Assembly: GCA_016209155.1 (NCBI GenBank)
Contig: JACQWU010000118.1
Location: 1 to 11,399 of the forward strand
Direction: 5' to 3'
Source: Candidatus Desantisiibacteriota bacterium
GTDB lineage: Bacteria > JACRDZ01
Length of the DNA stretch: 11,399 nucleotides
The notes below the pieces were generated by a model that searched no databases, was not told the origin of the DNA, and saw nothing but the letters and a program-made list of their open reading frames with translations. This document shows, one piece after another, positions 1-11,399 of the stretch. Numbering within the stretch: position 1 is the first letter of the stretch; the number at the start of each line of letters is the position of its first letter. The position numbers and the translations under genes are program-made.

Positions 1-2
1 AG

Positions 3-902
3 CTCGTTAATAGTATTCCCGGACTTGAGAATGCGGAAAGAATAAGGCCGGGCTATGCAATTGAATATGATTTTTGTCCGCCGTATCAGATTAAAGCGAC
101 TTTAGAAACAAAAAAAATTGAAGGTTTATATTTTGCGGGACAGATAAACGGTACTTCAGGTTATGAAGAAGCCGCAGGACAGGGTTTGGTAGCAGGCGCA
201 AATGCTGCTTTAAAAATACAGAAAAAAGAGCCTTTTGTTTTAAATCGCGCGGAAGCATATATCGGAGTTTTGATTGATGACCTCATAACAAAAGGTACAC
301 AGGAACCTTACAGAATGTTCACATCCCGCGCTGAATACAGACTTATTCTGCGTCAGGATAATGCTGATTTAAGATTAATGCAAAAAGGCTTTGAACTTGG
401 GCTTGTCCCAAAAGATACATATAAACATATGCTGGATAAAAAAAATAAGATTGATGATGAAAAAAAAAGGCTGCGAAATGTATTTATATATCCTGTAACT
501 TCCAATCAGGAGTTTTTGAAAAAACACGGATATCCGGAAATAAAAGAAAAACATGATCTTTTAAATATACTTAGAAGGCCGAATATAACTTATAATGATC
601 TCGGCGATATAGATGAAGAAAGTAAAAAAACATCCAAAGAAATAAAAGAACAGGTAGAAATTGAAGTTAAATACGAAGGATATATTGAAAGACAAAAAAG
701 ACAAATTGAAGAGTTTGAAAAATTAGAATCATGGAGAATACCTGCGTCTTTAGATTATAAAGATATTCAGGGTATTCCGGCTGAATGCAGGCAGAAACTT
801 GATACGATTAAACCTGCAAATCTGGGGCAGGCTTCCCGTGTGTCAGGAGTAAGCCCGGCTGATATTGCCGTACTTATGATATACTTAAAAAGACATAATT
901 AA
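3..902 (+). CDS. mnmG: tRNA uridine-5-carboxymethylaminomethyl modification enzyme MnmG, C-terminal part (5' truncated by window)
   Basis: This is the last 299 codons of MnmG (GidA); the frame is open from base 3, so the start lies left of the window. MnmG is an FAD protein that works with the GTPase MnmE to modify uridine 34 of certain tRNAs at carbon 5. The family signatures seen are the FAD-domain motif GQINGTSGYEEAAGQG near codons 47-62, followed by TSRAEYRLILRQDNADLRL. The C-terminal helical tail has the typical QASRVSGVSPADIAVLM, used for MnmE and tRNA contact. A full MnmG is about 620 residues, so roughly half is present. An internal TTG at 186 is not a start, because conserved sequence continues upstream. 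The stop at 900-902 is followed 10 bases later by ribD, so the genes may be co-transcribed. Identification is near certain. Confidence 0.97.
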   Translation, partial: LVNSIPGLENAERIRPGYAIEYDFCPPYQIKATLETKKIEGLYFAGQINGTSGYEEAAGQGLVAGANAALKIQKKEPFVLNRAEAYIGVLIDDLITKGTQEPYRMFTSRAEYRLILRQDNADLRLMQKGFELGLVPKDTYKHMLDKKNKIDDEKKRLRNVFIYPVTSNQEFLKKHGYPEIKEKHDLLNILRRPNITYNDLGDIDEESKKTSKEIKEQVEIEVKYEGYIERQKRQIEEFEKLESWRIPASLDYKDIQGIPAECRQKLDTIKPANLGQASRVSGVSPADIAVLMIYLKRHN

Positions 903-909
903 AAGAGGG
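903..909 (+). promoter_or_regulatory. Shine-Dalgarno site of ribD
   Basis: The purine run AAGAGGG lies directly after the mnmG stop and 3 bases before the ribD ATG at 913. It fixes the ribD start and implies read-through from mnmG, since the 10-base gap leaves no room for a promoter. Confidence 0.6.
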
Positions 910-912
910 AAA

Positions 913-2001
913 ATGAATAATAAACATTATATGCAATTAGCGTTAAAACTGGCGGAAAAAGGGATAGGAAATGTAAGCCCTAATCCTCCTGTGGGTGCGT
1001 TAATTGTAATAAATAATAAGATTATAGGAAAAGGATACCATGAAAAATATGGTTCTTTTCATGCGGAGATTAATGCTCTTTCAAATGTAAAAAATTCTGC
1101 GGGTTCGACCCTTTTTGTAACTCTTGAACCCTGCTGTCATTATGGAAAAACACCGCCATGCACCGAAGCTATTTTAAAATCCGGAATAAAAAAAGTAGTA
1201 ATCGGGATGAAAGACCCTAATCCGCTGGTTGCAGGAAAAGGGATAAATATTTTAAAAAAGCATGGGATTAGTGTTGATGTTGAAAATCTTAATGGCAAAA
1301 TAGATATATTTTATGAATATTTTAAAAAATTTATAACATCAGGGATGCCGTTTATAACATTAAAGATGGCAATGACACTTGATGGAAAAATTGCAACGGT
1401 ATCAGGTGATTCCAAATGGATTTCAAGTGAAAAGTCCCGTTATCTGGTACATCAATTACGCAAAAGGAGTGATGCGATTCTTGTGGGATCGAATACTGTA
1501 ATACATGATGATCCAAAGCTTACTCCGTATCTGATCAAAAATAATACATTTATGCCCCTGCGAATAATTCTTGATCCCAACTCAAGGGCACCTTTAACCG
1601 GCAACGTATTTAAAGATGGTAATCCAACACTTTTAGTAATAGATAAAAAAGTATCAATAGATAAAAAGAAAATATTGAATCTGCCAAATGTTGAAATTTT
1701 ACCGATATCTGTTTTTAATAATAAATTTGATTTGCATGAATTATTATATAAACTCGGCAAGAAAGGAATAACAAGCATTTTTGTTGAAGGAGGATCCTCT
1801 ACAAGCGGTGCTTTTTTTGAAAAAAAACTGGTGGATAAAGTCATATTTTTTATAGCTCCAAAAATTTTTGGAGGAAAAAACGCGCCAACCCCTGTTGGAG
1901 GAATTGGTGTACAAAAAGCAAAAGATGCAATAAAACTTGATAAAATATGTATAAAAAAAATTGATTCTGATATAATGATAACAGGTTATCCTGTGTATTA
2001 A
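913..2001 (+). CDS. ribD: Bifunctional diaminohydroxyphosphoribosylaminopyrimidine deaminase / 5-amino-6-(5-phosphoribosylamino)uracil reductase
   Basis: RibD carries out the second and third steps of riboflavin synthesis in the cytoplasm: deamination of the GTP cyclohydrolase II product, then NADPH-dependent reduction of the ribosyl side chain. The 362-residue length is normal. The N-terminal deaminase domain (about 1-145) has the zinc site: His50 in FHAEINAL, with Glu52 as proton shuttle, and Cys74 and Cys83 in LEPCCHYGKTPPC. The C-terminal reductase domain (about 146-362) has LKMAMTLDGKIA, SDAILVGSNTV..DDPKLT and the VEGGSSTSGAFF loop. Both halves look intact. It starts 10 bases after mnmG and ends 13 bases before ribE, which points to one transcript. 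No FMN riboswitch was seen upstream. Confidence 0.97.
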   Translation: MNNKHYMQLALKLAEKGIGNVSPNPPVGALIVINNKIIGKGYHEKYGSFHAEINALSNVKNSAGSTLFVTLEPCCHYGKTPPCTEAILKSGIKKVVIGMKDPNPLVAGKGINILKKHGISVDVENLNGKIDIFYEYFKKFITSGMPFITLKMAMTLDGKIATVSGDSKWISSEKSRYLVHQLRKRSDAILVGSNTVIHDDPKLTPYLIKNNTFMPLRIILDPNSRAPLTGNVFKDGNPTLLVIDKKVSIDKKKILNLPNVEILPISVFNNKFDLHELLYKLGKKGITSIFVEGGSSTSGAFFEKKLVDKVIFFIAPKIFGGKNAPTPVGGIGVQKAKDAIKLDKICIKKIDSDIMITGYPVY

Positions 2002-2011
2002 GAAGGAGAGA
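2002..2011 (+). promoter_or_regulatory. Strong Shine-Dalgarno site of ribE
   Basis: AGAAGGAGAG directly follows the ribD stop and sits a few bases before the ribE ATG at 2015. It is the strongest SD match in the riboflavin cluster. Confidence 0.7.
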
Positions 2012-2014
2012 ATC

Positions 2015-2653
2015 ATGTTTACAGGTATTATTGAAGAAGTGGGAAAGATAAAAAAAATTGAATATGACGGTGAAGGCCGAAAATTAATAGTAGAAGCGCA
2101 TAAAATAATGTCTGATATAAAACAAGGTGAGAGCATTGCGCTTGATGGAGTATGCCTTACTGTTGAATCATGGGGCAAAGATTTTTTTGTTGTATATGTC
2201 ATGCCGGAAACAATGAAAAAAACAGGCTTTCTTAATCTCAAGGTCGGACAATTAATAAATCTCGAAAAAGCGCTTCCGCTAAATGGCAGACTTGGGGGAC
2301 ATTTTGTTCAGGGACATGTTGATACAACAGGGACTATCACTCAGATTATCCCTGACAGTAAAGCTAAAATTATAAAAATATCTATTCCTTTTGAATGGAA
2401 CAAATACCTTGTCCCAAAGGGTTCAATAAGTATTAACGGTATAAGTCTTACAATAATAGAAGCAGAGAAAGATTTTTTCACCGTTTCTATTATTCCTCAT
2501 ACACAGAATATTACCAATATTGGAAACAAAAAAATTCATGATACAGTAAATATAGAATTTGATATTTTAGCTAAACATATAGTAAAATTAGTTACTCCAA
2601 TGGTTTCTTCCGGACTGACACTGGATAAAATAAAAGAAATGGGGATAAGATAA
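2015..2653 (+). CDS. ribE: Riboflavin synthase, alpha subunit type
   Basis: Riboflavin synthase dismutates two molecules of 6,7-dimethyl-8-ribityllumazine to riboflavin and the pyrimidinedione that is recycled. It is usually a homotrimer in the cytoplasm. At 212 residues it has the normal length and the two tandem lumazine-binding repeats. Repeat one starts with the canonical MFTGIIEEVG and contains SIALDGVCLTV and GGHFVQGHVDTTG (residues 94-106). Repeat two contains GSISINGISLTI (136-147) and IIPHTQNITNIG. The start is supported by an AGAAGGAGAG site 3-12 bases upstream. The symbol follows the ribDE-BA-H naming; the same enzyme is called ribC in E. coli. The next gene, ribBA, follows only after a repeat-bearing 210-base gap. 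Confidence 0.96.
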   Translation: MFTGIIEEVGKIKKIEYDGEGRKLIVEAHKIMSDIKQGESIALDGVCLTVESWGKDFFVVYVMPETMKKTGFLNLKVGQLINLEKALPLNGRLGGHFVQGHVDTTGTITQIIPDSKAKIIKISIPFEWNKYLVPKGSISINGISLTIIEAEKDFFTVSIIPHTQNITNIGNKKIHDTVNIEFDILAKHIVKLVTPMVSSGLTLDKIKEMGIR

Positions 2654-2680
2654 TATATACAACAAATTTATTGGAATATT

Positions 2681-2770
2681 TGTAGGGGCACCCCTTGCGG
2701 GTGCCCTAAATATAGGGACCATAAATAAACAATATAGCGAAGCAGGGCAGGTGCAAGACCTGCCCCTACA
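2681..2770. repeat. Inverted pair of REP-like hairpins (BIME-like) between ribE and ribBA
   Basis: The element is bounded by exact 10-base inverted repeats, TGTAGGGGCA at 2681-2690 and TGCCCCTACA at 2761-2770. Each end is itself a hairpin headed by GTAG. The left unit has GTAG at 2682-2685, stem GGGCACCC at 2686-2693, loop CTTGC at 2694-2698 and GGGTGCCC at 2699-2706. The right unit reads on the minus strand as GTAG (2766-2769), stem GGGCAGGT, loop CTTGC, ACCTGCCC, covering 2745-2765. Stems are perfect 8-mers and the loops are identical, while the stem sequences differ. A GTAG head plus a hairpin in inverted pairs is the known architecture of REP/BIME elements moved by RAYT transposases. It could also attenuate transcription or block mRNA decay between ribE and ribBA. 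Confidence 0.85.
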
Positions 2771-2805
2771 TTACCCATAAATTTGCTGATACCCAATAAG
2801 TTTAA

Positions 2806-2835
2806 TTTACAATATATAATAAAATATGATATAAA
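2806..2835 (+). promoter_or_regulatory. Possible sigma70 promoter of ribBA
   Basis: TTTACA at 2806-2811 and TATAAA at 2830-2835 are separated by 18 bases, about 28 bases before the ribBA ATG. The region is very AT-rich and also holds other TATAAT-like hexamers (2815-2820, 2836-2841), so the exact boxes are uncertain. A separate promoter is plausible because the hairpin pair separates ribBA from ribE. Confidence 0.35.
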
Positions 2836-2863
2836 TATAATTTCATTACAAAAGGATTAAAAA

Positions 2864-4066
2864 ATGCATTTTGATAAAATTGAAGACATTATTAAAGATA
2901 TAAAAAAAGGGAAAATGGTAATAGTTGTTGATGATGAGGATCGCGAAAATGAAGGGGATCTTGTCATGGCAGCGGAAAAAGTCACTCCGTCAGCAATAAA
3001 TTTTATGGCTAAATACGGCAGAGGACTTATATGTATGCCGCTTTTGAGTTCACGACTGGATGAACTAAAAATACCTTCAATGGTACCGGATAACTCCGAT
3101 CATCTGGAAACAGCTTTCACAGTATCAGTTGATGCTAAACCGGAAACATCTACGGGCATTTCCGCTCATGACCGTGCGGCAACAATTAAAAAAATTATTG
3201 ATCCTTATGCAACACCAGAAGGTTTCGCACGCCCCGGGCATATTTTTCCTCTGCGTGCCCGTGACGGAGGAGTGCTCACCCGTGCAGGGCATACTGAAAC
3301 TGCTGTGGATCTTGCCAGAATGGCAAATCTATATCCCGCAGGTATTATTTGTGAGATAATGAATGATGACGGGCATATGTCACGTCTTCCTGAATTGAAA
3401 AAATTTGCCGCAGAACATAAATTAAAAATTATTTCAATTAAAGAATTAATAGAATACAGACAGAAAAAAGAGTGTTTTATAAGACGTATTACAGAAACAG
3501 TCTTACCTACAGCATTCGGAGATTTTAATCTGGTTTTGTATGGAACGACAATAGATGATAAAAATCATATTGCTCTTATTAAAGGGAAAATAGAAAAAGG
3601 GAAAAGTATCCTTGTGCGGGTACATTCGGAATGTCTTACCGGAGATACATTTGGTTCATTGCGCTGTGATTGCGGACAGCAGTTTAAACATTCAATGGAT
3701 TTGATAAACAGAGAAAAGTGCGGAGTTCTTCTTTATATGCGACAGGAAGGAAGAGGAATCGGTCTTGTGAATAAAATGAGAGCATACGCTTTGCAGGACA
3801 AAGGTATGGATACTGTTGAAGCAAATAAAGAACTTGGTTTTAAAGATGATTTAAGAGATTACGGAATAGGAGCACAGATACTGGCTGATCTCGGACTTTC
3901 GAAAATCAGACTTTTAACAAACAACCCCCGCAAAATAATCGGACTTGAGGGATACGGACTAAAAGTTGTTAAACGTGTCCCTATAGAAATCGCTCCTAAT
4001 AAAATGAATAAAAAATATTTAAACATAAAAAAAACAAAACTCGGACATATGATAGAAAATGTGTAG
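2864..4066 (+). CDS. ribBA: Bifunctional 3,4-dihydroxy-2-butanone-4-phosphate synthase / GTP cyclohydrolase II
   Basis: RibBA makes both starting units of riboflavin: DHBP from ribulose 5-phosphate, and the pyrimidine precursor from GTP. The 400-residue length is typical. The N-terminal DHBP synthase domain (about 1-200) has the acidic metal loop [10 protein letters not shown] (23-32), [15 protein letters not shown] (140-154) and [11 protein letters not shown] (164-174). The GTP cyclohydrolase II domain (about 205-400) has zinc ligands Cys257, Cys268 and Cys270 in [17 protein letters not shown], the RQEGRGIGL motif (293-301), [11 protein letters not shown] (330-340) and LLTNNPRK (350-357). 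All key residues expected for both activities appear present. An AAAGGA site at 2851-2856 supports the start. Lumazine synthase (ribH), often the next gene, is absent here; a mutase-like gene follows after 18 bases. Confidence 0.97.
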
Positions 4067-4084
4067 AGTACAAAGGGAAAAATA

Positions 4085-4918
4085 ATGATCCAAACTGCTA
4101 TTATGTTTGATGTTGATAGTACACTAACCCCGCCCCGCCAGCCGATTACAAAGTCAATGGTGGAAATTTTAAAAAAACTTAAAGTCCCATTTCATGTTGT
4201 TGCAGGCAGTCATATTTCTCTTTTAAATGAACAATTCTTCAAACCGCTTTATGAATTTGGTTTCAGAGGACAATTCAGCGCTTTTATAAGTAACGGTGCC
4301 ATACATTATAAATGCGATTATTCAAATAGCATGTCTATTACACTTGTTTCCGAATTCAATATTAAAAAACATCTTGGTGATGCTGACTATGATTTTTTAT
4401 CAAAAGTACTCAAAAAAACTTTGGAACTCAAAAAATTTCAATTACCGCCGTCTATAAAAGTAATAGGAGAAAGAATTGCCGATAGAATATCCATGGTTAA
4501 CTTTTGTCCTATCGGCAGAATGGAAAAAGAAAATATCGATATCCAAATTAACAGAAAAAATTTTAGCGTGTTTGACTGCAATAATGGATATAGAAAAGAA
4601 CTTATGACTTATCTTAATCAGGAATTAGCTCTGCTTATAAATAAAAAAAATCTGGAAATAATGCTTGGCGGACAAACATCCTTCGATATTGGCATCCGTG
4701 ATCAGGATAAAACAAACTCAATAAGAACTTTATTGAAAGAAGGAGTTAAAAGATTAATTTTTATCGGTGATGCTTTATTTGAAGGCGGTAATGATTATGT
4801 CATTCGAAAATTCATTCAAAAATGGCCTTCTGATTCCGAATGTCCGGTTGAAGCAATTCAAACAAATTCATGGGAACATACAAAAGAAATACTTTATGAA
4901 AATAAATTTGTTTCTTAG
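4085..4918 (+). CDS. HAD-superfamily protein resembling eukaryotic-type phosphomannomutase
   Basis: The 277-residue protein matches the HAD-IIB family that includes eukaryotic PMM1/PMM2, which interconvert mannose 6-phosphate and mannose 1-phosphate. Motif I is FDVDSTLTPPRQPIT, with nucleophile Asp9 and acid/base Asp11; the usual DxDGT glycine is replaced by Ser12. A cap segment RISMVNFCPIGR (134-145) resembles the PMM substrate-phosphate site RNGMLNVSPIGR. LGGQTSFDIGIRDQDK (194-209) resembles the PMM IGGQISFDV..WDK, and FIGDALFEGGNDYVI (226-240) supplies the metal-binding motif IV. PMM is about 250 residues, so the length fits. An AAGGGAAA site precedes the ATG. It lies 18 bases after ribBA and before another sugar-phosphate mutase. 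Alternatives are a sugar-phosphate phosphatase or, less likely, the riboflavin-pathway phosphatase. Family is confident; substrate is inferred. Confidence 0.8.
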   Translation: MIQTAIMFDVDSTLTPPRQPITKSMVEILKKLKVPFHVVAGSHISLLNEQFFKPLYEFGFRGQFSAFISNGAIHYKCDYSNSMSITLVSEFNIKKHLGDADYDFLSKVLKKTLELKKFQLPPSIKVIGERIADRISMVNFCPIGRMEKENIDIQINRKNFSVFDCNNGYRKELMTYLNQELALLINKKNLEIMLGGQTSFDIGIRDQDKTNSIRTLLKEGVKRLIFIGDALFEGGNDYVIRKFIQKWPSDSECPVEAIQTNSWEHTKEILYENKFVS

Positions 4919-4927
4919 GTGATAACA

Positions 4928-5004
4928 AGCAATGAGTGATGAGCAATTAGCAATGAGTGATGAGTGGTTTTTAACTCATTGCCCATTGCCAGGTACTCAT
5001 TGCT
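4928..5004. repeat. Cluster of direct and inverted AGCAATGAGT repeats
   Basis: A 16-base direct repeat, AGCAATGAGTGATGAG, occurs at 4928-4943 and 4949-4964. Inverted copies of its first part follow: ACTCATTGC at 4974-4982 and ACTCATTGCT at 4995-5004. The copies can nest as an outer stem (4928-4937 with 4995-5004) and an inner stem (4950-4958 with 4974-4982). It fills the gap between the two mutase genes. It may be a slippage-derived or dispersed short repeat; the fold could also affect transcript stability. Confidence 0.75.
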
Positions 5005-5024
5005 TCTTTTCATAACGGAGCCAC

Positions 5025-6965
5025 ATGAACTCAAAAGAAATTAAAATTAATCCATATGATGATAAATGGCAGAAAATTGAACTGACCGATTCGTTAATTG
5101 ATGCATATTCCCTTGCAAACTGGGCAAAAAACTTTTCCTTGATGACAGCCGGTTACCGTGATCAACTGGATCCGAAAGATGCGAATAATCCTGAAGTCGC
5201 ATTCAATTCTCTTACAATTGCCATAATGGGAGAAGCAAAAGCACGCGTTTTCAAGCAAAAACTTGCAGGAAACACACAAGCTCATGTGCATATTGGAGGA
5301 GAAACACGTCCCCATACGCAAGAATTTATAAGCATTTTATCCAGAATATACTCCGCACATAATATAAAAGTCCATCTGCGGGAACGGGTTAAAACAACTC
5401 CTATCTGGTATTCATCTTTCGGTGTTTTTTATAATGGGTTTGAAAGCGGTGAAAATCTCACAGCAAGCCATTCCCCGTTTTTTAAGGGCGGGTGGAAGCC
5501 TATGGATTCAATGGGGAAACAGCTTCTTGCTGAAGAAAAAGAAATTATCGCTGAAGTTCAAAATATCATCAAAAATAAGGATACAATCACTCTTGCCCCA
5601 TGGTCGCCAAATGAAAATATTTTAAATGATTTTGAGATTGACGAACCATATGTAGAGTACCAAAAATCCATTATTTTAGAAAAATCACAGGATGATATAA
5701 AGCAGGCAATAAAAAAAGGTTTCCGTTTCTCAATCTGTACATCCGGCGGTTCAATGAAAGCAACTACGGAACGATTATTTAATTTATTCGGAATAACAGA
5801 CGGGAAGCAGTATTTTTATGATGAAGAAGACTCCGAGTATCATCAAATCGGGAAGAAAGACGGTCCGGATCCAAGCAAACCGCAGGTTTATAAAAATATC
5901 GGAGCGCAGGAAATTATTCATAGTAATAAAGCAAACATTGTTTTAATCTGGGACCCTGACGGTGATAGACTAAATATTGTAACATCCGCATCCGCTGATA
6001 AAGCAAAATATTATAGTGAACTCGGGCTTGAAGTTGAAATATTACACAATAGCGATAAATGCATAGTGTATTTTACTCCAAATCAAATTTATTTAATGCT
6101 TACTTCATATAGAATTGATGTATTAAAAGCAACTAATCTCCTTAATACGTATGATTGGTTCGTTACAATTTCAATTTCCACTTCACGCTCAATTGAAGAA
6201 ATAGCCTTAGCAAATAATATCCCGGTTACTCATGTTCGTGTTGGATTTAAATATATGGGGACATTTGCAGAATGGATCGAAGCAAGATCCGATACCGCGG
6301 AATACTATACCTCCCCTACAGGTGAAAAAATAATACTCGGAAAAAACCCGAGAGCGCTGATTATGTGCGAAGAATCCGGAGGCGCGGTATTTGGCGGCAA
6401 AGATCTTTTAGAAAATAAATCCGGAACAAAAGGATTAATCTCTCTGCGTGAAAAAGATGGAATGCAATTGGGATTATTAACCCTTTCACTGGCAGCTTTT
6501 TTACATAATAATAATAATCAATCATTCGCTGATTATTATTGCAGTTTAATTAAAAAATACAATATTAAATATAAATATTTTAACAGATGTGATGTCCGTT
6601 TATACGATGAAAGCCTAACCGGCAATGATTTACAAAAAGCCAAATCAGCAGGAATTCAAAAACGTGATAAAACCATGGAATACTTTATGAGCCTTGCAAA
6701 ACGAGCTAATACAGGAGAATCTCTTGAAAATATTTGTAATGAAATTAATGCTATAATATTAAAATGTGATAAATTTTTACCAGCGATAAAACTTATTAAT
6801 CTTGCAGGGGAAGGAATCTTGGATGGTATTTTACTAGAATTCCAAACTTTTTGGTGCCTTATACGTGCATCTGGCACAGATGCCCTTCTTCGATATTATT
6901 TAGAAGGACAGAATAAAGAAGAAATTGAGGTTTACCAAAAGATATTGATTAGTTTAAAGATTTAA
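5025..6965 (+). CDS. Alpha-D-phosphohexomutase superfamily protein (phosphoglucomutase/phosphomannomutase-like)
   Basis: This 646-residue protein has the four hallmark loops of the alpha-D-phosphohexomutase superfamily, which moves a phosphate between C1 and C6 of hexoses via a phosphoserine. The active-site loop is TASHSP (146-151; TASHNP in most members), with Ser148 the expected phosphoserine. The metal loop is DPDGDR (310-315). The sugar-binding loop is CEESGG (448-453), with GFKYMG (407-412) before it. The phosphate-binding loop is RASGTDALLRYY (614-625). An N-terminal TAGYRD (41-46) matches the usual GT-GxRG region. It is about 100 or more residues longer than common bacterial members, with extra sequence around 165-300. 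CGGAG at 5016-5020 sets the start. Its neighbour 4085-4918 is a HAD-type mutase. The exact substrate cannot be read from sequence. Confidence 0.9.
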   Translation: MNSKEIKINPYDDKWQKIELTDSLIDAYSLANWAKNFSLMTAGYRDQLDPKDANNPEVAFNSLTIAIMGEAKARVFKQKLAGNTQAHVHIGGETRPHTQEFISILSRIYSAHNIKVHLRERVKTTPIWYSSFGVFYNGFESGENLTASHSPFFKGGWKPMDSMGKQLLAEEKEIIAEVQNIIKNKDTITLAPWSPNENILNDFEIDEPYVEYQKSIILEKSQDDIKQAIKKGFRFSICTSGGSMKATTERLFNLFGITDGKQYFYDEEDSEYHQIGKKDGPDPSKPQVYKNIGAQEIIHSNKANIVLIWDPDGDRLNIVTSASADKAKYYSELGLEVEILHNSDKCIVYFTPNQIYLMLTSYRIDVLKATNLLNTYDWFVTISISTSRSIEEIALANNIPVTHVRVGFKYMGTFAEWIEARSDTAEYYTSPTGEKIILGKNPRALIMCEESGGAVFGGKDLLENKSGTKGLISLREKDGMQLGLLTLSLAAFLHNNNNQSFADYYCSLIKKYNIKYKYFNRCDVRLYDESLTGNDLQKAKSAGIQKRDKTMEYFMSLAKRANTGESLENICNEINAIILKCDKFLPAIKLINLAGEGILDGILLEFQTFWCLIRASGTDALLRYYLEGQNKEEIEVYQKILISLKI

Positions 6966-6970
6966 TAAAT

Positions 6971-6989
6971 TTATAAAATTATTTTATAA
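6971..6989. repeat. Perfect AT-only palindrome overlapping the ribosome-binding site of the next ORF
   Basis: TTATAAAAT at 6971-6979 is exactly mirrored by ATTTTATAA at 6981-6989 around one central T. The right arm runs into the AAAGG site (6988-6992) of the ORF at 6999. It may be an operator, a weak stem or chance in AT-rich DNA. Confidence 0.4.
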
Positions 6990-6998
6990 AGGCATCTT

Positions 6999-7316
6999 AT
7001 GAATTCCATTAATAATTTTGAAAAACAAATTGAAATAGGACAATTAATATTTAAACCAGATCGTTTTTTAAAAATAGATCATAATCTTAATATATCTGTT
7101 TATGGTATAAATTTGGCGATTTGGCCACTTCCTCAACCTATAAAAGAAACCTATAATAAATTTCGCAATGAATTATTAAAGTTCGACCCAGTCAATATGT
7201 ATGTTTATCCTTATAAACAAACACATGGTGATGAAATTAAATTAACTGCAGAAACAAAACCTTATATGCGAGATGGAGATAAATTTTATCATAGTGTTAA
7301 ATTAGAAGGGCAGTGA
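6999..7316 (+). CDS. Small protein of unknown function, possibly a truncated 2H-phosphoesterase (2'-5' RNA ligase-like)
   Basis: This 105-residue ORF starts at ATG with AAAGG 6-10 bases upstream. It has no signal peptide or membrane segment. The segment INLAIWPLPQPIKETYNKFRNELLKFDP followed by YVYPYKQTHG (around 67-76) recalls the first half of 2H phosphoesterases, where a strand, a helix and an HxT/S motif occur in this order. Only one such histidine is present and no second HxT motif follows, so if the match is real the protein is a truncated remnant. Its TGA overlaps a GTG that begins the broken epimerase (GTGA overlap), which points to a former translationally coupled pair. I do not recognise it with confidence. 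Confidence 0.5.
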   Translation: MNSINNFEKQIEIGQLIFKPDRFLKIDHNLNISVYGINLAIWPLPQPIKETYNKFRNELLKFDPVNMYVYPYKQTHGDEIKLTAETKPYMRDGDKFYHSVKLEGQ

Positions 7317-7572
7317 TACTAATAAAAAAGAAAAAAATATTGGTTAGTGGTGGCCTTGGGTTTATTGGATCTCATATTATTAACAGATTGGTTGATTTAT
7401 ATGATATTGTGGTTATTGATTAAGATGACTCTCCTTCTGCATTAAAATTTATTGCTGAATATGAAAAAAAAATATTAAGGTATATACATTTAATATTGCT
7501 GATTACAAATTTTGGGATAAAATAGAACCATGTGATTATATTTTCCATGGTGCAGCTCTGTATTTTAAATAA
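7313..7572 (+). pseudogene. NAD-dependent epimerase/dehydratase fragment (extended SDR), with stop, frameshift and truncation
   Basis: From a GTG at 7313, overlapping the previous stop, the frame reads KKKKILVSGGLGFIGSHI, the GxxGxxG Rossmann motif of extended short-chain dehydrogenases such as UDP-glucose 4-epimerase. It continues to VVID, where a TAA at 7421-7423 interrupts what should be the second strand's acidic tip. Homology-like sequence goes on in the same frame to the A9 run at 7464-7472. It then shifts frame and ends as NIADYKFWDKIEPCDYIFHGAAL at a TAA (7570-7572). The HGAAL motif is the normal point about 80 residues into such enzymes, so some 220 residues are missing. Two independent lesions plus truncation make it a pseudogene rather than a small gene. 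Confidence 0.85.
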
Positions 7573-7574
7573 AT

Positions 7575-7603
7575 TTGACTTAACCACATCTTGAAGCTAT
7601 AAT
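7575..7603 (+). promoter_or_regulatory. Near-consensus sigma70 promoter placed for a leaderless start
   Basis: TTGACT at 7575-7580 and TATAAT at 7598-7603 are separated by exactly 17 bases and match 11 of 12 consensus positions. Only 8 bases separate the -10 box from the ATG at 7612. The expected transcription start at about 7610 leaves essentially no 5' leader, and no Shine-Dalgarno sequence is present. Confidence 0.8.
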
Positions 7604-7611
7604 AATTTATT

Positions 7612-7857
7612 ATGCCGCACACAACAAAATATATATTAACTAATAGTGATAAAAAAATTATTTCTCAAGCACTTTGGGATATAAATCTTTCTCCTGAAGA
7701 ATTTCTGGATATTATAAATGGTACGAGTAATAAAAAATGGCCTGTTAGGGGATTTTGTGTTGCCCGATTACTTGAGAGTGTTAATTGGTTCGATATTGTA
7801 AAGATTATTGAGCCAAAAAAAATATGCATGCCTTTCCAGAGGTTACTACAATCATAG
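7612..7857 (+). pseudogene. AbiE-like antitoxin remnant, 3' end lost at the junction with the toxin
   Basis: The 81-residue reading frame contains ALWDINLSPEEFLDIINGTS, then KWPVRGFCVARLLESVNWFDIVKIIEPKKI. This resembles the small proteins often encoded just before AbiEii-type nucleotidyltransferase toxins, with a WD start and a RLLE..W-D-KI helix. In those, another 30-40 residues normally follow. Here the similarity stops at an A8 run (7815-7822) and the last codons are out-of-frame toxin sequence. The gene has its own strong promoter (7575-7603) and no Shine-Dalgarno site. I infer a deletion that removed the antitoxin end and the toxin start. Assignment to the antitoxin family is from memory of such pairs and is moderate; the loss of an ordinary downstream boundary is directly visible. 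Confidence 0.6.
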
Positions 7858-8383
7858 ATATTCTGATGATCTTGACTATTTTATAAATGATTATGCTGAT
7901 TTTGAAAGAATAAGTGAAAGACAGATTGAAAAGTTAAAAAATATATTTCAAAATACTAAGATAGCTCTTAAAGATAAAAATTTTTACAGAATTTTTATTG
8001 GTGATGAAAATCTAAAAATTGAGATGATTAATGATGTCCCATCTCATATTGGACAGTTTATTACACATTCTTTAATTGGGTTAATAGATTCAAAAGAAAA
8101 TATCATTGCAAATAAATTAACAGCTGCTGTAGATAGATCCATGTCAAAGGATATTGTTGATATATATTTTCTTTTGAAGGATGGACTGAGTTTAAAGAGA
8201 GCCTTATTGGATGCTGACAGTAAAGCTGCCGGTATATCACCTTTACTTATTGCTAAAATTTTTGCAGAATTCCAATACAAAAACATTGATAACGAGATTA
8301 AATGGATTATACCTGTTTCGTCCCAAATAATAAAAAAATACATGATTGATGTTTCATTAGCTATTATTGAAGGCAGGATATAA
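7817..8383 (+). pseudogene. AbiEii/AbiGii-type nucleotidyltransferase toxin remnant, N-terminus missing
   Basis: In the +1 frame relative to the antitoxin, the sequence reads ACLSRGYYNHRYSDDLDYF, the second half of the GS-type nucleotidyltransferase core of AbiEii (DUF1814) proteins. Later it reads NKLTAAVDRSMSKDIVDIYFLL, the conserved KD-DLYFL region of the same family. Type IV AbiE toxins are GTP-binding nucleotidyltransferases. The preceding 40-50 residues, including the GG(T/S) motif, are replaced by antitoxin sequence (KKYACL), so the active site is incomplete although SDDLD is kept. A TTG at 7808 could start the frame but has no Shine-Dalgarno site. Removing one A from the A8 run at 7815-7822 would join both frames into one 256-residue ORF. 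The C-terminal end at 8383 looks natural. Confidence 0.8.
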
Positions 8384-8484
8384 TTATTCGTGAATCCTAA
8401 CCAGAACAAATAAAGATAAGGGCTGTCCAAAAAGGTGTCATTTCACATTTGATGCGGAATCCAGGTTTTAGAATAATGGTTTAA
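8384..8484. other. Non-coding stretch with IS-end-like and dispersed-repeat debris
   Basis: No gene is seen here. GGGCTGTCCAAAAAGG at 8420-8435 resembles terminal repeats of some insertion sequences (for example IS1182-like ends starting GGGCTGTCC), but no partner end or transposase was found nearby. It is followed directly by a degenerate palindrome at 8437-8464. Confidence 0.35.
8437..8464. repeat. Degenerate GTCATT...AATCCAG dispersed palindrome
   Basis: GTCATTTCACATTTGATG followed by CGGAATCCAG looks like a decayed copy of the common bacterial dispersed palindrome of the form GTCATTCCCGC...GCGGGAATCCAG. The G/C positions of the left arm have mutated. Recognition is from general familiarity with this repeat class. 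Confidence 0.45.
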
Positions 8485-8652
8485 ATACTAGATCCCCGCC
8501 TTCCTGTGAAACATACCAAGGAATTATACAGAACATTGTCTTGCAATAAAAAAATACGGATAATTGAAGGCGCCGGGCATAATGACTGGCCGAGGGTAAT
8601 TAGATCTTCAAATTGGAAAGAAATTATGAGCTTTGTAAGTGGAAATGATTAA
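8485..8652 (+). pseudogene. C-terminal tail of an alpha/beta hydrolase
   Basis: The in-frame stretch after a TAA at 8482-8484 reads DPRLPVKHTKELYRTL, then KKIRIIEGAGHNDWPRV, ending KEIMSFVSGND and a TAA at 8650-8652. This is the usual C-terminal end of alpha/beta hydrolases: the acid-loop D..LPV-H segment, the catalytic-histidine motif GAGHND, and the final helix. About 55 codons remain of an enzyme normally 250-300 residues long. There is no start codon context or upstream hydrolase sequence. The nucleophile elbow (GxSxG) is gone, so it cannot be active. Confidence 0.7.
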
Positions 8653-8667
8653 ACTAAAGTGTTTCCC

Positions 8668-8674
8668 GGGAGGA
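8668..8674 (+). promoter_or_regulatory. Shine-Dalgarno site that decides the start of the zinc-ribbon gene
   Basis: GGGAGGA ends 8 bases before the ATG at 8683. A GTG at 8659 in the same frame lies upstream of this site, so 8683 is the better start. Confidence 0.75.
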
Positions 8675-8682
8675 AAAGTATA

Positions 8683-9099
8683 ATGAAAAAATGCAGAGAT
8701 TGCCATCATGATATTAGCGAGCAGGCCTTTAGCTGCCCAAATTGCGGGGCACCTTATCCTGCCAAAGAAAAATGGGATGGGTGGGGATTTGAGTACAAAA
8801 GCGAAACAATTATCTTGGGATTACCTTTGCTTCATATTTCATTCAAATATCGGCCTAACAAAATACCGGTACCTGCCAAAGGTATAATCTCAATCGGGCA
8901 GTTGGGTATAGGAATAATCAATATTTCCCAATTTGGAGCAGGTATTATAAGCATAAGCCAATTTACAGTTGCTTTTTATGCTTTGGCACAATTTGCTATT
9001 GGATATTCCTTAATTGCACAGATAGGATTATATATTAATAAAGGATATGGACAGTTTGTTTGGAGTATTATTAAAATAATAAAACATATTGTGGCATAA
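8683..9099 (+). CDS. Zinc-ribbon protein with five hydrophobic decapeptide repeats, function unknown
   Basis: This 138-residue protein starts with a zinc ribbon: Cys4, Cys7, Cys18 and Cys21 in CRDCHHD...SCPNCG. After a linker (WDGWGFEYKS..) it has five head-to-tail ten-residue repeats from 67 to 116: GIISIGQLGI, GIINISQFGA, GIISISQFTV, AFYALAQFAI and GYSLIAQIGL. Glutamine recurs at 73, 83, 93, 103 and 113. The period is exact with no insertions. The repeats are hydrophobic and glycine-rich, so they could be membrane-embedded or form a small stacked-strand fold. A short tail with lysines follows. The start is set by GGGAGGA at 8668-8674. The gene is intact although it sits next to degraded genes. 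I do not recognise a function. Confidence 0.8.
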   Translation: MKKCRDCHHDISEQAFSCPNCGAPYPAKEKWDGWGFEYKSETIILGLPLLHISFKYRPNKIPVPAKGIISIGQLGIGIINISQFGAGIISISQFTVAFYALAQFAIGYSLIAQIGLYINKGYGQFVWSIIKIIKHIVA

Positions 9100-9115
9100 C
9101 CGGAGAGTTATAATT

Positions 9116-9195
9116 CAAGGTAGGTGCAATCTCCTGATTGCGATTTTTTTCATAATCGAACGAATTATCGCAATCAGGAGATTGCTCCTACCTTG
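9116..9195. repeat. Near-perfect 29-bp inverted repeat made of two REP-like hairpins
   Basis: Arms at 9116-9144 and 9167-9195 match as inverted repeats with a single mismatch (9125/9186), around a 22-base centre. Each arm contains its own hairpin after a GTAG head. The left reads GTAGGT (9120-9125), GCAATC, TCCT, GATTGC (to 9141). The right, on the minus strand, reads GTAGGA, GCAATC, TCCT, GATTGC (9191 to 9170). It has the same GTAGG head and inverted-pair layout as the element at 2681-2770 but a different stem. It lies between the zinc-ribbon gene and the ATPase promoter and could also act as a transcription barrier. Confidence 0.85.
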
Positions 9196-9219
9196 TGTTT
9201 TTGTATCTAAATAAATTGC

Positions 9220-9248
9220 TTGACAAGGAAAATTTATTCGGATAAAAT
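9220..9248 (+). promoter_or_regulatory. Near-consensus sigma70 promoter of the ATPase gene, placed for a leaderless start
   Basis: TTGACA at 9220-9225 is a perfect -35 box. TAAAAT at 9243-9248 follows after 17 bases, giving 11 of 12 consensus positions. The ATG at 9258 is 9 bases beyond the -10 box, so the expected start of transcription at about 9255 leaves a leader of a few bases. There is no Shine-Dalgarno sequence. An out-of-frame ATG at 9247 opens only a four-codon frame ending at 9261. Confidence 0.8.
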
Positions 9249-9257
9249 GCCCTTATT

Positions 9258-10397
9258 ATGAAAATTAAAAAAAGATTGTTTGAGCTTAATCTCCCCGCGG
9301 GAAAATCCGCTTTTTTGTGGGGGCCTCGAAAAGTCGGTAAAACTTACTGGATTTCTCACACACTTAAAAGCGCTACGATTATTGATTTACTTAAAACCGA
9401 TACTTTGGCGGAGTATGTTTCCCGGCCGGCATTATTACGCGAACGTTATCAGAATCAAAAAGGTTTTATCGTTATAGATGAAGTGCAGAAAGCTCCTCAG
9501 CTTTTGGATGAGGTCCACTGGCTTATTGAAAATAAAGGATTATCTTTTTTACTTACCGGTTCAAGCGCGCGAAAGCTGCGGCGCGGACACGCTAATCTAC
9601 TCGGCGGAAGGGCATGGAGAAAGACGATGTCTCCGCTATCTTATATGGAGGTAACAGATGTTGATCTGGAAAAAATTATGATTTCCGGTCTCCTGCCGTC
9701 TCATTATTTATCAACCAATCCTATTGAAGAACTCCGTGCTTATGTTGCCGATTATTTGAAAGAAGAAATCATTGCTGAAGCTCTTACACAAAACATACCG
9801 GCTTTTAACGAATTCCTGCATGTGGCCGCAATAACCTCAAGCGAGCTTATAAACTACATTAATATCGCCAGAGAAACCGGCGTTTCTCATAAAGTAATAC
9901 GCACATATTTTGATATTCTTGAGGATACATATCTTGGTTTTAGAATACCTCCCTGGAAAAAATCAAAAAACCGGCGCATGATCATTACTGAAAAATTTTA
10001 TCTATTTGATGTGGGTGTTGCTAATTATCTATCCCGCAGGCAGCCACTTATTGGCAGTTCTGAATTCGGTAAGGCATTCGAACATTATATCCTGATGGAA
10101 TTAAAAGCTTATCAGGCATATAAAAATCCCGATATACCGATAACCTTCTGGCGCACCAGTACAGGAAGAGAAGTGGATTTTATCCTGGGAGAAAAAGAAT
10201 TGGCTATTGAAATTAAAAGTTCTCCCCGCGTGCATGACGGAGATATATATTCACTCCAGGCCCTTCTCGAAGACGGGCCGGTAAAAAAACTTTGCCTTGT
10301 CTGTATGGAAAAAGAACCTCGTACTCTCGCAAGCAATATTCAAGTCCTTCCCTGGCAGATGTTTATTGAACAATTGTGGAGCGGTGAACTTCTGTAA
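9258..10397 (+). CDS. DUF4143-type ATP-binding protein (AAA_14 ATPase with nuclease-like C-terminal domain)
   Basis: The 379-residue protein has the typical layout of the common ATP-binding/DUF4143 family. The ATPase domain has Walker A GPRKVGKT (22-29), Walker B FIVIDEVQKAP (70-80), sensor LLTGSSARKLRR (99-109) and the GGRAW turn (116-120). The C-terminal DUF4143 domain has FGKAFEHYILMEL (270-282) and WRTSTGREVDFIL..AIEIKSS (298-322). Its Asp307, Glu318 and Lys320 fit a PD-(D/E)XK-like core. Length and motifs look complete. These proteins are abundant, often in many copies, in anaerobic bacteria and archaea; their role is unsettled. The gene has its own strong promoter, no Shine-Dalgarno site, and visibly more G/C-ending codons than the genes to its left, which fits recent arrival. 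Confidence 0.93.
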   Translation: MKIKKRLFELNLPAGKSAFLWGPRKVGKTYWISHTLKSATIIDLLKTDTLAEYVSRPALLRERYQNQKGFIVIDEVQKAPQLLDEVHWLIENKGLSFLLTGSSARKLRRGHANLLGGRAWRKTMSPLSYMEVTDVDLEKIMISGLLPSHYLSTNPIEELRAYVADYLKEEIIAEALTQNIPAFNEFLHVAAITSSELINYINIARETGVSHKVIRTYFDILEDTYLGFRIPPWKKSKNRRMIITEKFYLFDVGVANYLSRRQPLIGSSEFGKAFEHYILMELKAYQAYKNPDIPITFWRTSTGREVDFILGEKELAIEIKSSPRVHDGDIYSLQALLEDGPVKKLCLVCMEKEPRTLASNIQVLPWQMFIEQLWSGELL

Positions 10398-10462
10398 AGA
10401 AAAGTATTATTAAGGACTAATTTACTTAAGCTGCAAAACAGCAAAATTTATCCCGGAAAAAA

Positions 10463-11014
10463 CTAATTTGTATTATCTTTTTTTGAACTTATTTTTTCAA
10501 GTCTTTTCTTTTGATAATTTTCAACAATATTGAAAACAAGAAAATAGGCAATATAGGAAAACAATATGGAAACAATAGTATTTCCCAGTAAATAAATTAG
10601 TATCGTTGACTTCATGATTTTAGTAAAATCAAAATGTGAAAATGCGCTAAACGGTGTTTTCCAGTCAGTTGTCATATATGTTGTTTTAGCTTGTTTTAGT
10701 ATAAACCGCCAGTTAGTATTTGTAAATTTTCCGCCGATATAGGCGCTAATACCCCAGAAAAATGTAGTGGTAATAGGATTCATAATTAAAGAGCCGATAA
10801 AAGCAGCAGTTTTATTAGCTTTAAAGATTGCCGCAGTACCAACTGCGATAGGTATTCCCAGCATAAAAGTAGGGAAGATTCCCCAGAATACTCCGATTGA
10901 TGCACCCATTGCAATATTTCGAGGAGTATCGGGCAGCCGTTTTAATCTGTGTCCATAATATTTCGGGATTCTTAAAATTTTTTGCAGAAAATCTAATTTT
11001 TTTTTGTTATTCAT
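10463..11014 (-). CDS. DUF2062 family membrane protein
   Basis: The 183-residue protein matches the DUF2062 family. It has TPRNIAMGASIGVFWGIFPTF..GIPIAVG (about 30-59), then ANKTAAFIGSLIMNPITTTFFW (66-87) with the conserved NP-T, and a C-terminal hydrophobic segment (about 134-162) followed by a charged tail. It is probably an inner-membrane protein with about three to four membrane segments and a cytoplasmic basic N-terminus. The function of the family is unknown; some members are fused to or sit near glycosyltransferases. It converges with the ATPase gene across 65 bases without an obvious terminator and diverges from accD. The start at 11014 has no Shine-Dalgarno site but sits 6 bases from a strong -10 box. 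Confidence 0.9.
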   Translation of the reverse strand: MNNKKKLDFLQKILRIPKYYGHRLKRLPDTPRNIAMGASIGVFWGIFPTFMLGIPIAVGTAAIFKANKTAAFIGSLIMNPITTTFFWGISAYIGGKFTNTNWRFILKQAKTTYMTTDWKTPFSAFSHFDFTKIMKSTILIYLLGNTIVSILFSYIAYFLVFNIVENYQKKRLEKISSKKDNTN

Positions 11015-11020
11015 TTAGGA

Positions 11021-11049
11021 ATTTTAACCGTATTAAATTGATATGTCAA
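11021..11049 (-). promoter_or_regulatory. Near-consensus sigma70 promoter of the DUF2062 gene, placed for a leaderless start
   Basis: On the minus strand TTGACA (11049-11044) and TAAAAT (11026-11021) are exactly 17 bases apart. Only 6 bases (TCCTAA) separate the -10 box from the ATG at 11014. The predicted transcription start falls on or next to the start codon. Confidence 0.8.
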
Positions 11050-11083
11050 TAACAGAAAATGTTCAATTTGACTTTCCGCTGTT

Positions 11084-11112
11084 TTTTTGATACATTTCAT
11101 TACAATTATAAT
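11084..11112 (+). promoter_or_regulatory. Probable promoter of accD
   Basis: A perfect TATAAT at 11107-11112 lies 34 bases before the accD ATG. The position 17 bases upstream (11084-11089, TTTTTG) is a poor -35. TTGATA at 11087-11092 is a better hexamer but only 14 bases away. TTGACT at 11068-11073 with TACATT at 11091-11096 is a second 17-base option. The region is shared with the divergent DUF2062 promoter. Confidence 0.5.
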
Positions 11113-11134
11113 GTTTTTTAATCGATAATTGAAT

Positions 11135-11138
11135 GGAG
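11135..11138 (+). promoter_or_regulatory. Shine-Dalgarno site of accD
   Basis: GGAG ends 8 bases before the ATG at 11147, giving accD a conventional leader unlike its divergent neighbour. Confidence 0.65.
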
Positions 11139-11146
11139 AAGTAAAT

Positions 11147-11399
11147 ATGGCATGGTTAAGAAAAGAAATTCCTCACGGTTTATGGATAAAATGTGAAGGA
11201 TGCGATGAAATTATCTATCGTAAAGAATTAGAAAGAAATTTAAAGGTATGTCCTAAATGCAATTACCATTTCAGGCTCACATGGGAAGAAAGGGTTAATT
11301 TACTGATAGATAAGGATACGTTTATAGAATATGATACTCATCTGCAATCAAATGATCCATTAAAGTTTAAAGATCATAAAAAATATAAAGACAGAATAA
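11147..11399 (+). CDS. accD: Acetyl-CoA carboxylase carboxyltransferase subunit beta, N-terminal part (3' truncated by window)
   Basis: The first 84 codons of AccD, the beta half of the carboxyltransferase that passes the carboxyl group from biotin to acetyl-CoA to make malonyl-CoA for fatty acid synthesis. The sequence opens with IPHGLWIKCEGCDEII and KVCPKCNYHFRL, the AccD zinc ribbon with Cys16, Cys19, Cys35 and Cys38. It continues with TWEERVNLLIDKDTFIEYD and DPLKFKDHKKYKDRI, both standard for the family. A GGAG site at 11135-11138 sets the start. The catalytic crotonase-fold domain lies beyond the right edge. It is transcribed away from the DUF2062 gene. Confidence 0.97.
   Translation, partial: MAWLRKEIPHGLWIKCEGCDEIIYRKELERNLKVCPKCNYHFRLTWEERVNLLIDKDTFIEYDTHLQSNDPLKFKDHKKYKDRI

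Follow-up and report, generated by a model that had tools for sequence, protein, structure and literature searches.

Three genes in an 11,399-nt stretch of DNA from a Candidatus Desantisiibacteriota bacterium (contig JACQWU010000118.1, positions 1 to 11,399, hereafter the window) lie a few nucleotides downstream of a near-consensus sigma70 promoter and have no Shine-Dalgarno (SD) site. This raises the question of whether they share one regulatory element and what such a promoter could bring to each of them. The present analysis does not reveal any common element but draws attention to one of the three, an ATPase gene of the PDC-S01 family (9258..10397, + strand). We consider it probable, from sequence comparisons, that the region 9220-10397 is a portable single-gene cassette combining a strong promoter, an operator acting in cis (probably for autorepression) and a leaderless start. 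Neither the operator nor the horizontal spread of this gene was part of the preliminary description of this DNA.

Direct reading and a scan of the window found the three promoters exactly as initially described, each with a 17-nt spacer. Promoter 1 (7575..7603, + strand) consists of TTGACT (7575-7580) and TATAAT (7598-7603), 8 nt before the ATG at 7612. Promoter 2, also found in aligned relatives, has its -35 box, TTGACA, at 9220..9225 (+ strand) and its -10 box, TAAAAT, at 9243..9248 (+ strand), ending 9 nt before the ATG of the ATPase gene. Promoter 3 (11021..11049, - strand), which is divergent from accD, consists of TTGACA (11049-11044) and TAAAAT (11026-11021), 6 nt before the ATG at 11014. 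They are the only matches to 11 of the 12 promoter positions in the window, weaker matches being at chance level (55 compared to 51 expected from shuffles). No SD site precedes the ATGs at 7612, 9258 and 11014, and SD-like sites are found at seven other starts of the window. With distances of 8, 9 and 6 nt from the -10 box to the ATG, all three genes fall within the range (approximately 5-10 nt) of leaderless genes whose -10 box is adjacent to the open reading frame (ORF). However, the proposal that they share a promoter did not stand: each promoter is simply close to the sigma70 consensus, their flanks are unrelated, and a palindrome is present only at the 9220 promoter (none was noted by eye at the 7575 promoter). 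The three promoters are not one common regulatory element.

Alignment of the regions upstream of the ATPase gene and its relatives on their start codons revealed TTGACA-16/17-TAwAAT overlaid by a palindrome of about 30 bp (consensus AAGGGAAATTTATCCGGATAAAATTCCCTT) reaching from the downstream edge of the -35 box to the start codon. In the window, this putative operator, AAGGAAAATTTATTC|GGATAAAATGCCCTT (9225..9254, + strand), identified by its position and by covariation in relatives, is centred between 9239 and 9240 and symmetric at 11 of 15 pairs; the copy found at locus L172 is a perfect 36-bp palindrome. In 48 of the 56 loci showing at least 60% identity, the best dyad precedes the start by 15-18 nt, and the -10 box consequently by 6-9 nt. 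The central pair is C-G, T-A or A-T and is complementary in 51 of these 56 loci, compared to 23 expected from independent columns. Over the 15 pairs of 48 distinct sequences, the arms pair in 74.7% of the cells, compared to at most 48% when partners are slid by 1-3 columns. Furthermore, 61 cells are double-changed, compared to 36.5 in shuffles (none of 500 as high), and the covariation score (0.225) exceeds that of all 500 shuffles. The site is thus dyad-symmetric, overlaps the promoter and is conserved with covariation, as expected from an autoregulated operator. Since its two central positions cannot pair in an RNA hairpin, the symmetry is one of double-stranded DNA and points to a site for a dimeric protein.

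This palindrome is tightly linked to the ATPase gene. A degenerate pattern allowing up to two mismatches has one match in G000, the genome of the window (352 contigs totalling 3.08 Mb, 79% complete), and one in genome G001, which carries a close relative of the ATPase gene. A blind pattern search of 386 genomes returned five matches, four directly before this ATPase and a fifth that looks accidental, and no match to the reversed control. No second promoter carrying the palindrome was found in the sampled 1.08 Mb of G000, nor was any counterpart found when it was looked for at the 3' end of the ATPase gene. The site therefore predicts the ATPase gene, which argues for a role in cis, probably autoregulatory. 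The Nitrospira copy (L200) carries, upstream of its -35 box, a second and perfect palindrome, GTAGTTTTATCTAGATAAAACTAC, suggesting two operator sites.

The distribution of relatives indicates what has been transferred with the gene. The G001 copy, from another family of the same phylum, encodes a 91% identical ATPase, and DNA similarity extends from 49 nt before the ATG to 4 nt past the stop codon; about 40 promoter nucleotides in a row are identical (the last base excepted), the whole alignment being 86% identical. When bacterial and archaeal genomes were scanned, relatives were detected at 70 loci, mostly with 60-89% identity. The record titles name Elusimicrobia, Omnitrophota, Nitrospirae, Deltaproteobacteria/Desulfobacterales, Spirochaetes, Acidobacteria, Methylomirabilota, Verrucomicrobia, Planctomycetes, Firestonebacteria, Saganbacteria, Obscuribacterium and others, and the -35/-10/ATG geometry is kept in close relatives (60-89% identity) from at least 12 phylum-level groups. 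For almost every pair from different phyla, pairwise blastn found common DNA only from 42-52 nt before the ATG to about the stop codon; in the window, this similarity begins at about 9209, delimiting a conserved upstream unit (9209..9257, + strand). Relatives also occur on plasmids: of the 318 records concerned, 129 are conjugative. A nucleotide search of plasmids gave no match, and the viral contigs searched contained only one distant relative. Taken as a whole, these comparisons indicate that the ATPase gene was spread horizontally together with its promoter and palindrome. Just upstream of the cassette, the window also contains a long inverted repeat (9118-9195, taggtgcaatctcctgattgcg...cgcaatcaggagattgctcctacctt) resembling repetitive extragenic palindromes/bacterial interspersed mosaic elements (REP/BIME).

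The encoded protein carries the Pfam domains AAA_14 (PF13173, E 5.6e-20) and DUF4143 (PF13635, E 3.4e-30) and matches the PADLOC profile PDC-S01 (1.4e-52). It possesses a Walker motif (GPRKVGKT) and a PD-(D/E)XK-like motif (VDF...EIK) whose residues D307, E318 and K320 are invariant in 39 sequences, the invariant residues including both Walker-motif positions and this D...E-x-K set. In the AlphaFold2 model (predicted local distance difference test score of 90.6), residues 200-223 form a pair of helices and a strand comes next, an arrangement resembling a winged helix. Among the matches of residues 1-261 are STAND-type ATPases (signal transduction ATPases with numerous domains), namely Pab2304 (Z 14.8), SSO1545, plant nucleotide-binding leucine-rich repeat proteins (NLRs), CED-4 and APAF-1, and, with lower similarity, Orc proteins.

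A similar layout, with another repeat, is found in a second DUF4143 subfamily, examined through 28 relatives (40-51% identity, query included) of a different DUF4143 gene. Inverted repeats of another sequence overlap the -35 region of these genes, for example TTACAGATTGT...ACAATCTGTAA, GTGCAAATCG...CGATTTGCAC and GGACAAATTG...CAAATTGTCC. Compared to dinucleotide shuffles, 12 of the 28 genes have repeats with p<=0.01, as against one of 56 stretches drawn at random from these loci (Fisher combined p 4e-13). The best promoter ends 5-10 nt before the start in 11 of 19 cases (p 1e-5). On sequence grounds, the layout thus recurs in this subfamily, although its generality over the whole DUF4143 family is not proved. 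We advance only tentatively the broader idea that, as a rule, DUF4143/PDC-S01 ATPases move as leaderless cassettes of one gene that represses itself, with a palindromic operator proper to each subfamily on the promoter; this operator would be read by the winged helix and released when invasion is sensed. About 18 DUF4143 matches were found in G000. The DUF4143 copies L251 (G000:C323) and L243 (G000:C320) are broken by frame shifts or splits, and an intact TTGACA-16-TATAAT-6-ATG promoter persists in one of them. At L322, an inverted repeat with 19-bp arms (TTTATGTTATTTTAATATT / AATAATAAAATAACATAAA) immediately precedes a DUF4143 gene.

The cassette could work as follows. From a sigma70 promoter ending about 6-9 nt before the ATG, transcription would start at the start codon or 0-3 nt from it. 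With a dimeric DNA-binding protein bound to the palindrome, RNA polymerase would be blocked. The likeliest binder would be the ATPase itself, repressing its own synthesis, because the operator is found at no other gene and accompanies this one in its transfers. The leaderless start would free the ATPase gene from the SD rules of its host, and the operator would restrain the strong promoter until some trigger, perhaps invading DNA, releases repression. Such a cassette would be expressed in any host and limited by its own product. We infer a role in defence for it. A Thermus gene encoding AAA_14, DUF4143 and helix-turn-helix (HTH) motifs was reported to be 6.6-fold up with a plasmid in an Argonaute-positive strain (PMC4406477). 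This single data point fits a regulated expression.

It should also be emphasized that several observations weigh against autorepression by the ATPase, against strict leaderlessness or against the extension to other DUF4143 genes. The winged helix of STAND/NLR proteins, the nearest folds of the model, is generally autoinhibitory rather than a DNA binder, Orc1/Cdc6 being a counter-example. The protein columns whose variation follows that of the operator centre do not cluster in the HTH: among the top columns, raw mutual information with the operator centre is highest for residue 216, located in the presumed recognition helix, but residues 301/302 of the nuclease-like domain exceed it by z, and phylogeny confounds the whole operator-protein comparison. 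In the G001 copy, a 3-nt insertion places the -10 box 12 nt from the ATG, and strict leaderlessness is therefore not kept everywhere. Several DUF4143 genes elsewhere, including some members of the second subfamily, are SD-led. Finally, a sample of one DUF4143 gene per genome is weakly positive (repeats with p<=0.01 in 8 of 45, compared to 2 of 70 controls).

Could the promoters be ordinary leaderless promoters and nothing else, the palindrome reflecting base composition or promoter constraint and binding no protein? A -10 box 6-7 nt before an ORF is indeed a well-known leaderless geometry (PMC12340547), and two of the three promoters of the window have no evident palindrome. However, the dyad covariation beats both the column-shuffle and the slide controls, the position of the palindrome relative to the start is fixed in the 48 of 56 loci mentioned above, and the second DUF4143 subfamily has a different repeat, so that we regard this explanation as rather unlikely. 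It is also unlikely that the operator is read by a regulator of the host or of the neighbourhood instead of the ATPase. The usual function of the STAND winged helix, which is not DNA reading, and the failure of the column comparison to find the direct HTH-operator link that was looked for both favour such a regulator, but the site occurs once per genome, at the ATPase gene, and has reached unrelated hosts as part of a common unit that includes no other gene.

Two further explanations retain an effect of the palindrome but not repression at the DNA level. The palindrome may be a recognition site of the ATPase/nuclease-like protein for a role other than repression, such as the end or target of a mobile unit or a self-marking site, in agreement with the sharp limits of the common DNA at the palindrome and the stop codon, with the fusion of the ATPase to a PD-(D/E)XK-like domain and with the presence of relatives on conjugative and other plasmids (129 of the 318 records being conjugative). 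However, the 3' end of the gene has no matching palindrome and sharp limits are equally expected if selection acts only on the promoter and the gene, which makes this role very unlikely. The right arm of the repeat abuts the ATG, which would be sequestered in read-through RNA, and the repeat could thus be a hairpin hiding the start codon in such transcripts. In a hairpin, though, there is no way for the covarying central pair to form, and transcripts from the gene's own promoter would contain no more than the last few nucleotides of the repeat; we consider this hairpin extremely improbable. Autorepression of a leaderless gene by the ATPase remains the reading that we favour.

The preliminary description also suggested that leaderless and SD-led genes are found side by side in one chromosome, and it called the three genes of the window accessory. 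In G000, the pattern TTGACW-N15-19-TAWAAT-N4-12-ATG has 28 matches, compared to five for the reversed control pattern, these 28 being pattern matches of which about 12 begin an ORF of at least 65 codons. Distances were analyzed on genes called by a codon model in the 1.08 Mb sample, made of 100 stretches and purposely including every contig with a TTGACW/TAWAAT site at most 31 nt before an ATG, so that densities are biased and distances up to 31 nt are ascertained alike. For strong promoters (both boxes with at least 5/6 matches, spacer of 16-18), eight genes have a distance of 6 nt and none a distance of 0-4 or 7 nt; none of the 12 strong-promoter genes at 5-9 nt has an SD site. Among SD-less genes whose promoters have a -35 box with at least 4/6 matches, 23 promoters lie at 5-9 nt compared to about 10 per 5-nt bin farther out, and only one SD-led gene has a promoter at 5-9 nt. 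SD-like 4-mers precede 51% of the called genes, compared to 10% in the control region. The suggested coexistence is thus borne out: the spacing is commoner than chance, and a leaderless minority exists beside SD-led genes.

The label of accessory genes fits better than the window alone could show, although less firmly than the coexistence of the two classes. Nine SD-less genes have promoters with 11-12 of 12 matches at 5-9 nt; they encode four DUF4143 ATPases, a BrnT toxin, a Fic protein, a small HTH protein, a family-less 96-aa protein and a DUF2062 protein. BrnT, Fic and DUF4143 thus account for six of the nine, whereas approximately eight of the 42 strong-promoter genes with longer leaders are antitoxin-like or DUF4143, the remainder being mostly metabolic, secretion or other genes. 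With small numbers and four of these six genes coming from one family, an enrichment of leaderless starts among accessory genes is only suggested. Two BrnT-like toxin genes of the same genome (L039:11814-12083 and L046:6349-6633) have leaderless promoters at 9 and 6 nt, respectively.

The 7575 and 11049 promoters belong to the leaderless class by geometry only, comparative support being found for neither. The former precedes an 81-aa ORF (7612..7857, + strand) that has no database family and for which no relatives were found within the phylum. This ORF overruns, out of frame, the beginning of an AbiEii-like ORF (7808..8383, + strand; PF08843, 8e-9) that lacks the N-terminal part of the profile. 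An intact AbiEii nucleotidyltransferase of an AbiE type IV toxin-antitoxin system (7612-8383) was considered and ruled out: the match starts at position 22 of the 238 of the profile (22-191) and the frame upstream of it is closed. The AbiEii-like ORF is probably a truncated module. It lies between the remnant of a sugar-nucleotide epimerase-like gene (7316-7560, VSGGLGFIGSHIINRLVDLYDIVVID*), with an early stop, and a remnant resembling the C-terminus of an alpha/beta hydrolase (8450-8650, IIEGAGHNDWP...), and the region 7300-8650 as a whole has the look of a gene graveyard. Behind the 11049 promoter lies a gene encoding a DUF2062 membrane protein (10463..11014, - strand; PF09835, 7.9e-29). No relative of this gene was found in the genome-contig search, and the two weak ones found in the phylum have no leaderless promoter at the start examined. 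The DUF2062 gene thus has no informative relatives. Elsewhere in the window, an inverted repeat, gtaggggcaccccttgcgggtgcc...gcaggtgcaagacctgcccctaca, is located between ribE and a ribBA-like gene (2684-2777).

If the leaderless reading is true, the ATPase cassette arrives with the signals for its own expression and, in a new host, does not depend on a ribosome-binding site, which would make it a concrete case of a gene carrying its transcription and translation start signals across phyla that differ in SD usage. A gene-specific operator also offers a direct handle, as its binder and its releasing signal would show what the ATPase senses. PDC-S01 is a very common family of candidate anti-phage ATPases; if the layout holds for DUF4143/PDC-S01 in general, sensor, effector and repressor would be one protein.

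Leaderless starts have been described, and so, separately, have mobile genes that regulate themselves but, as far as our searches reach, their combination on a single-gene defence candidate has not been described in the open literature on DUF4143, COG1373 or PDC-S01. In Deinococcus-Thermus, leaderless genes with a -10 motif adjacent to the ORF make up about a third of the genes, show no functional bias and have TANNNT motifs (Zhong et al., PMC12340547). The genes reported here resemble them by a -10 box approximately 6-7 nt before the start, the 6-nt peak corresponding to the same geometry, by the absence of SD and by the presence of SD-led genes alongside. They differ from them by their minority status, by a full -35 box and, for the ATPase gene, by a palindromic putative operator. 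PDC-S01 is reported to rank fourth in frequency among the defence systems or candidates of prokaryotes and to have been transferred multiple times, its validation being pending, as the anti-phage activity of most PDCs is reported not to have been validated yet (PMC12988326). Its members share with our ATPase the AAA_14-DUF4143 family, the fusion of the ATPase to a PD-(D/E)XK domain and frequent horizontal transfer; the portions available of the PDC-S01 literature found by family name describe no operator or leaderless start.

Autoregulation through inverted repeats has precedents in mobile elements. The lambda cI gene is autoregulated. Its mRNA is leaderless (mentioned in PMC9031893). In AbiEi/AbiEii systems, a dedicated antitoxin binds 23-bp inverted repeats, two in one system and four in another (PMC7319586). 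As in AbiE, where the product represses its own promoter, the ATPase gene has inverted repeats over the promoter of a mobile defence-type locus; unlike AbiE, it is one gene without partner, with one palindrome that extends to the start codon. With cI, it shares the geometry of a leaderless mRNA, mobility and a putative autoregulation, but cI is a dedicated phage repressor whereas the product of the present cassette is an ATPase.

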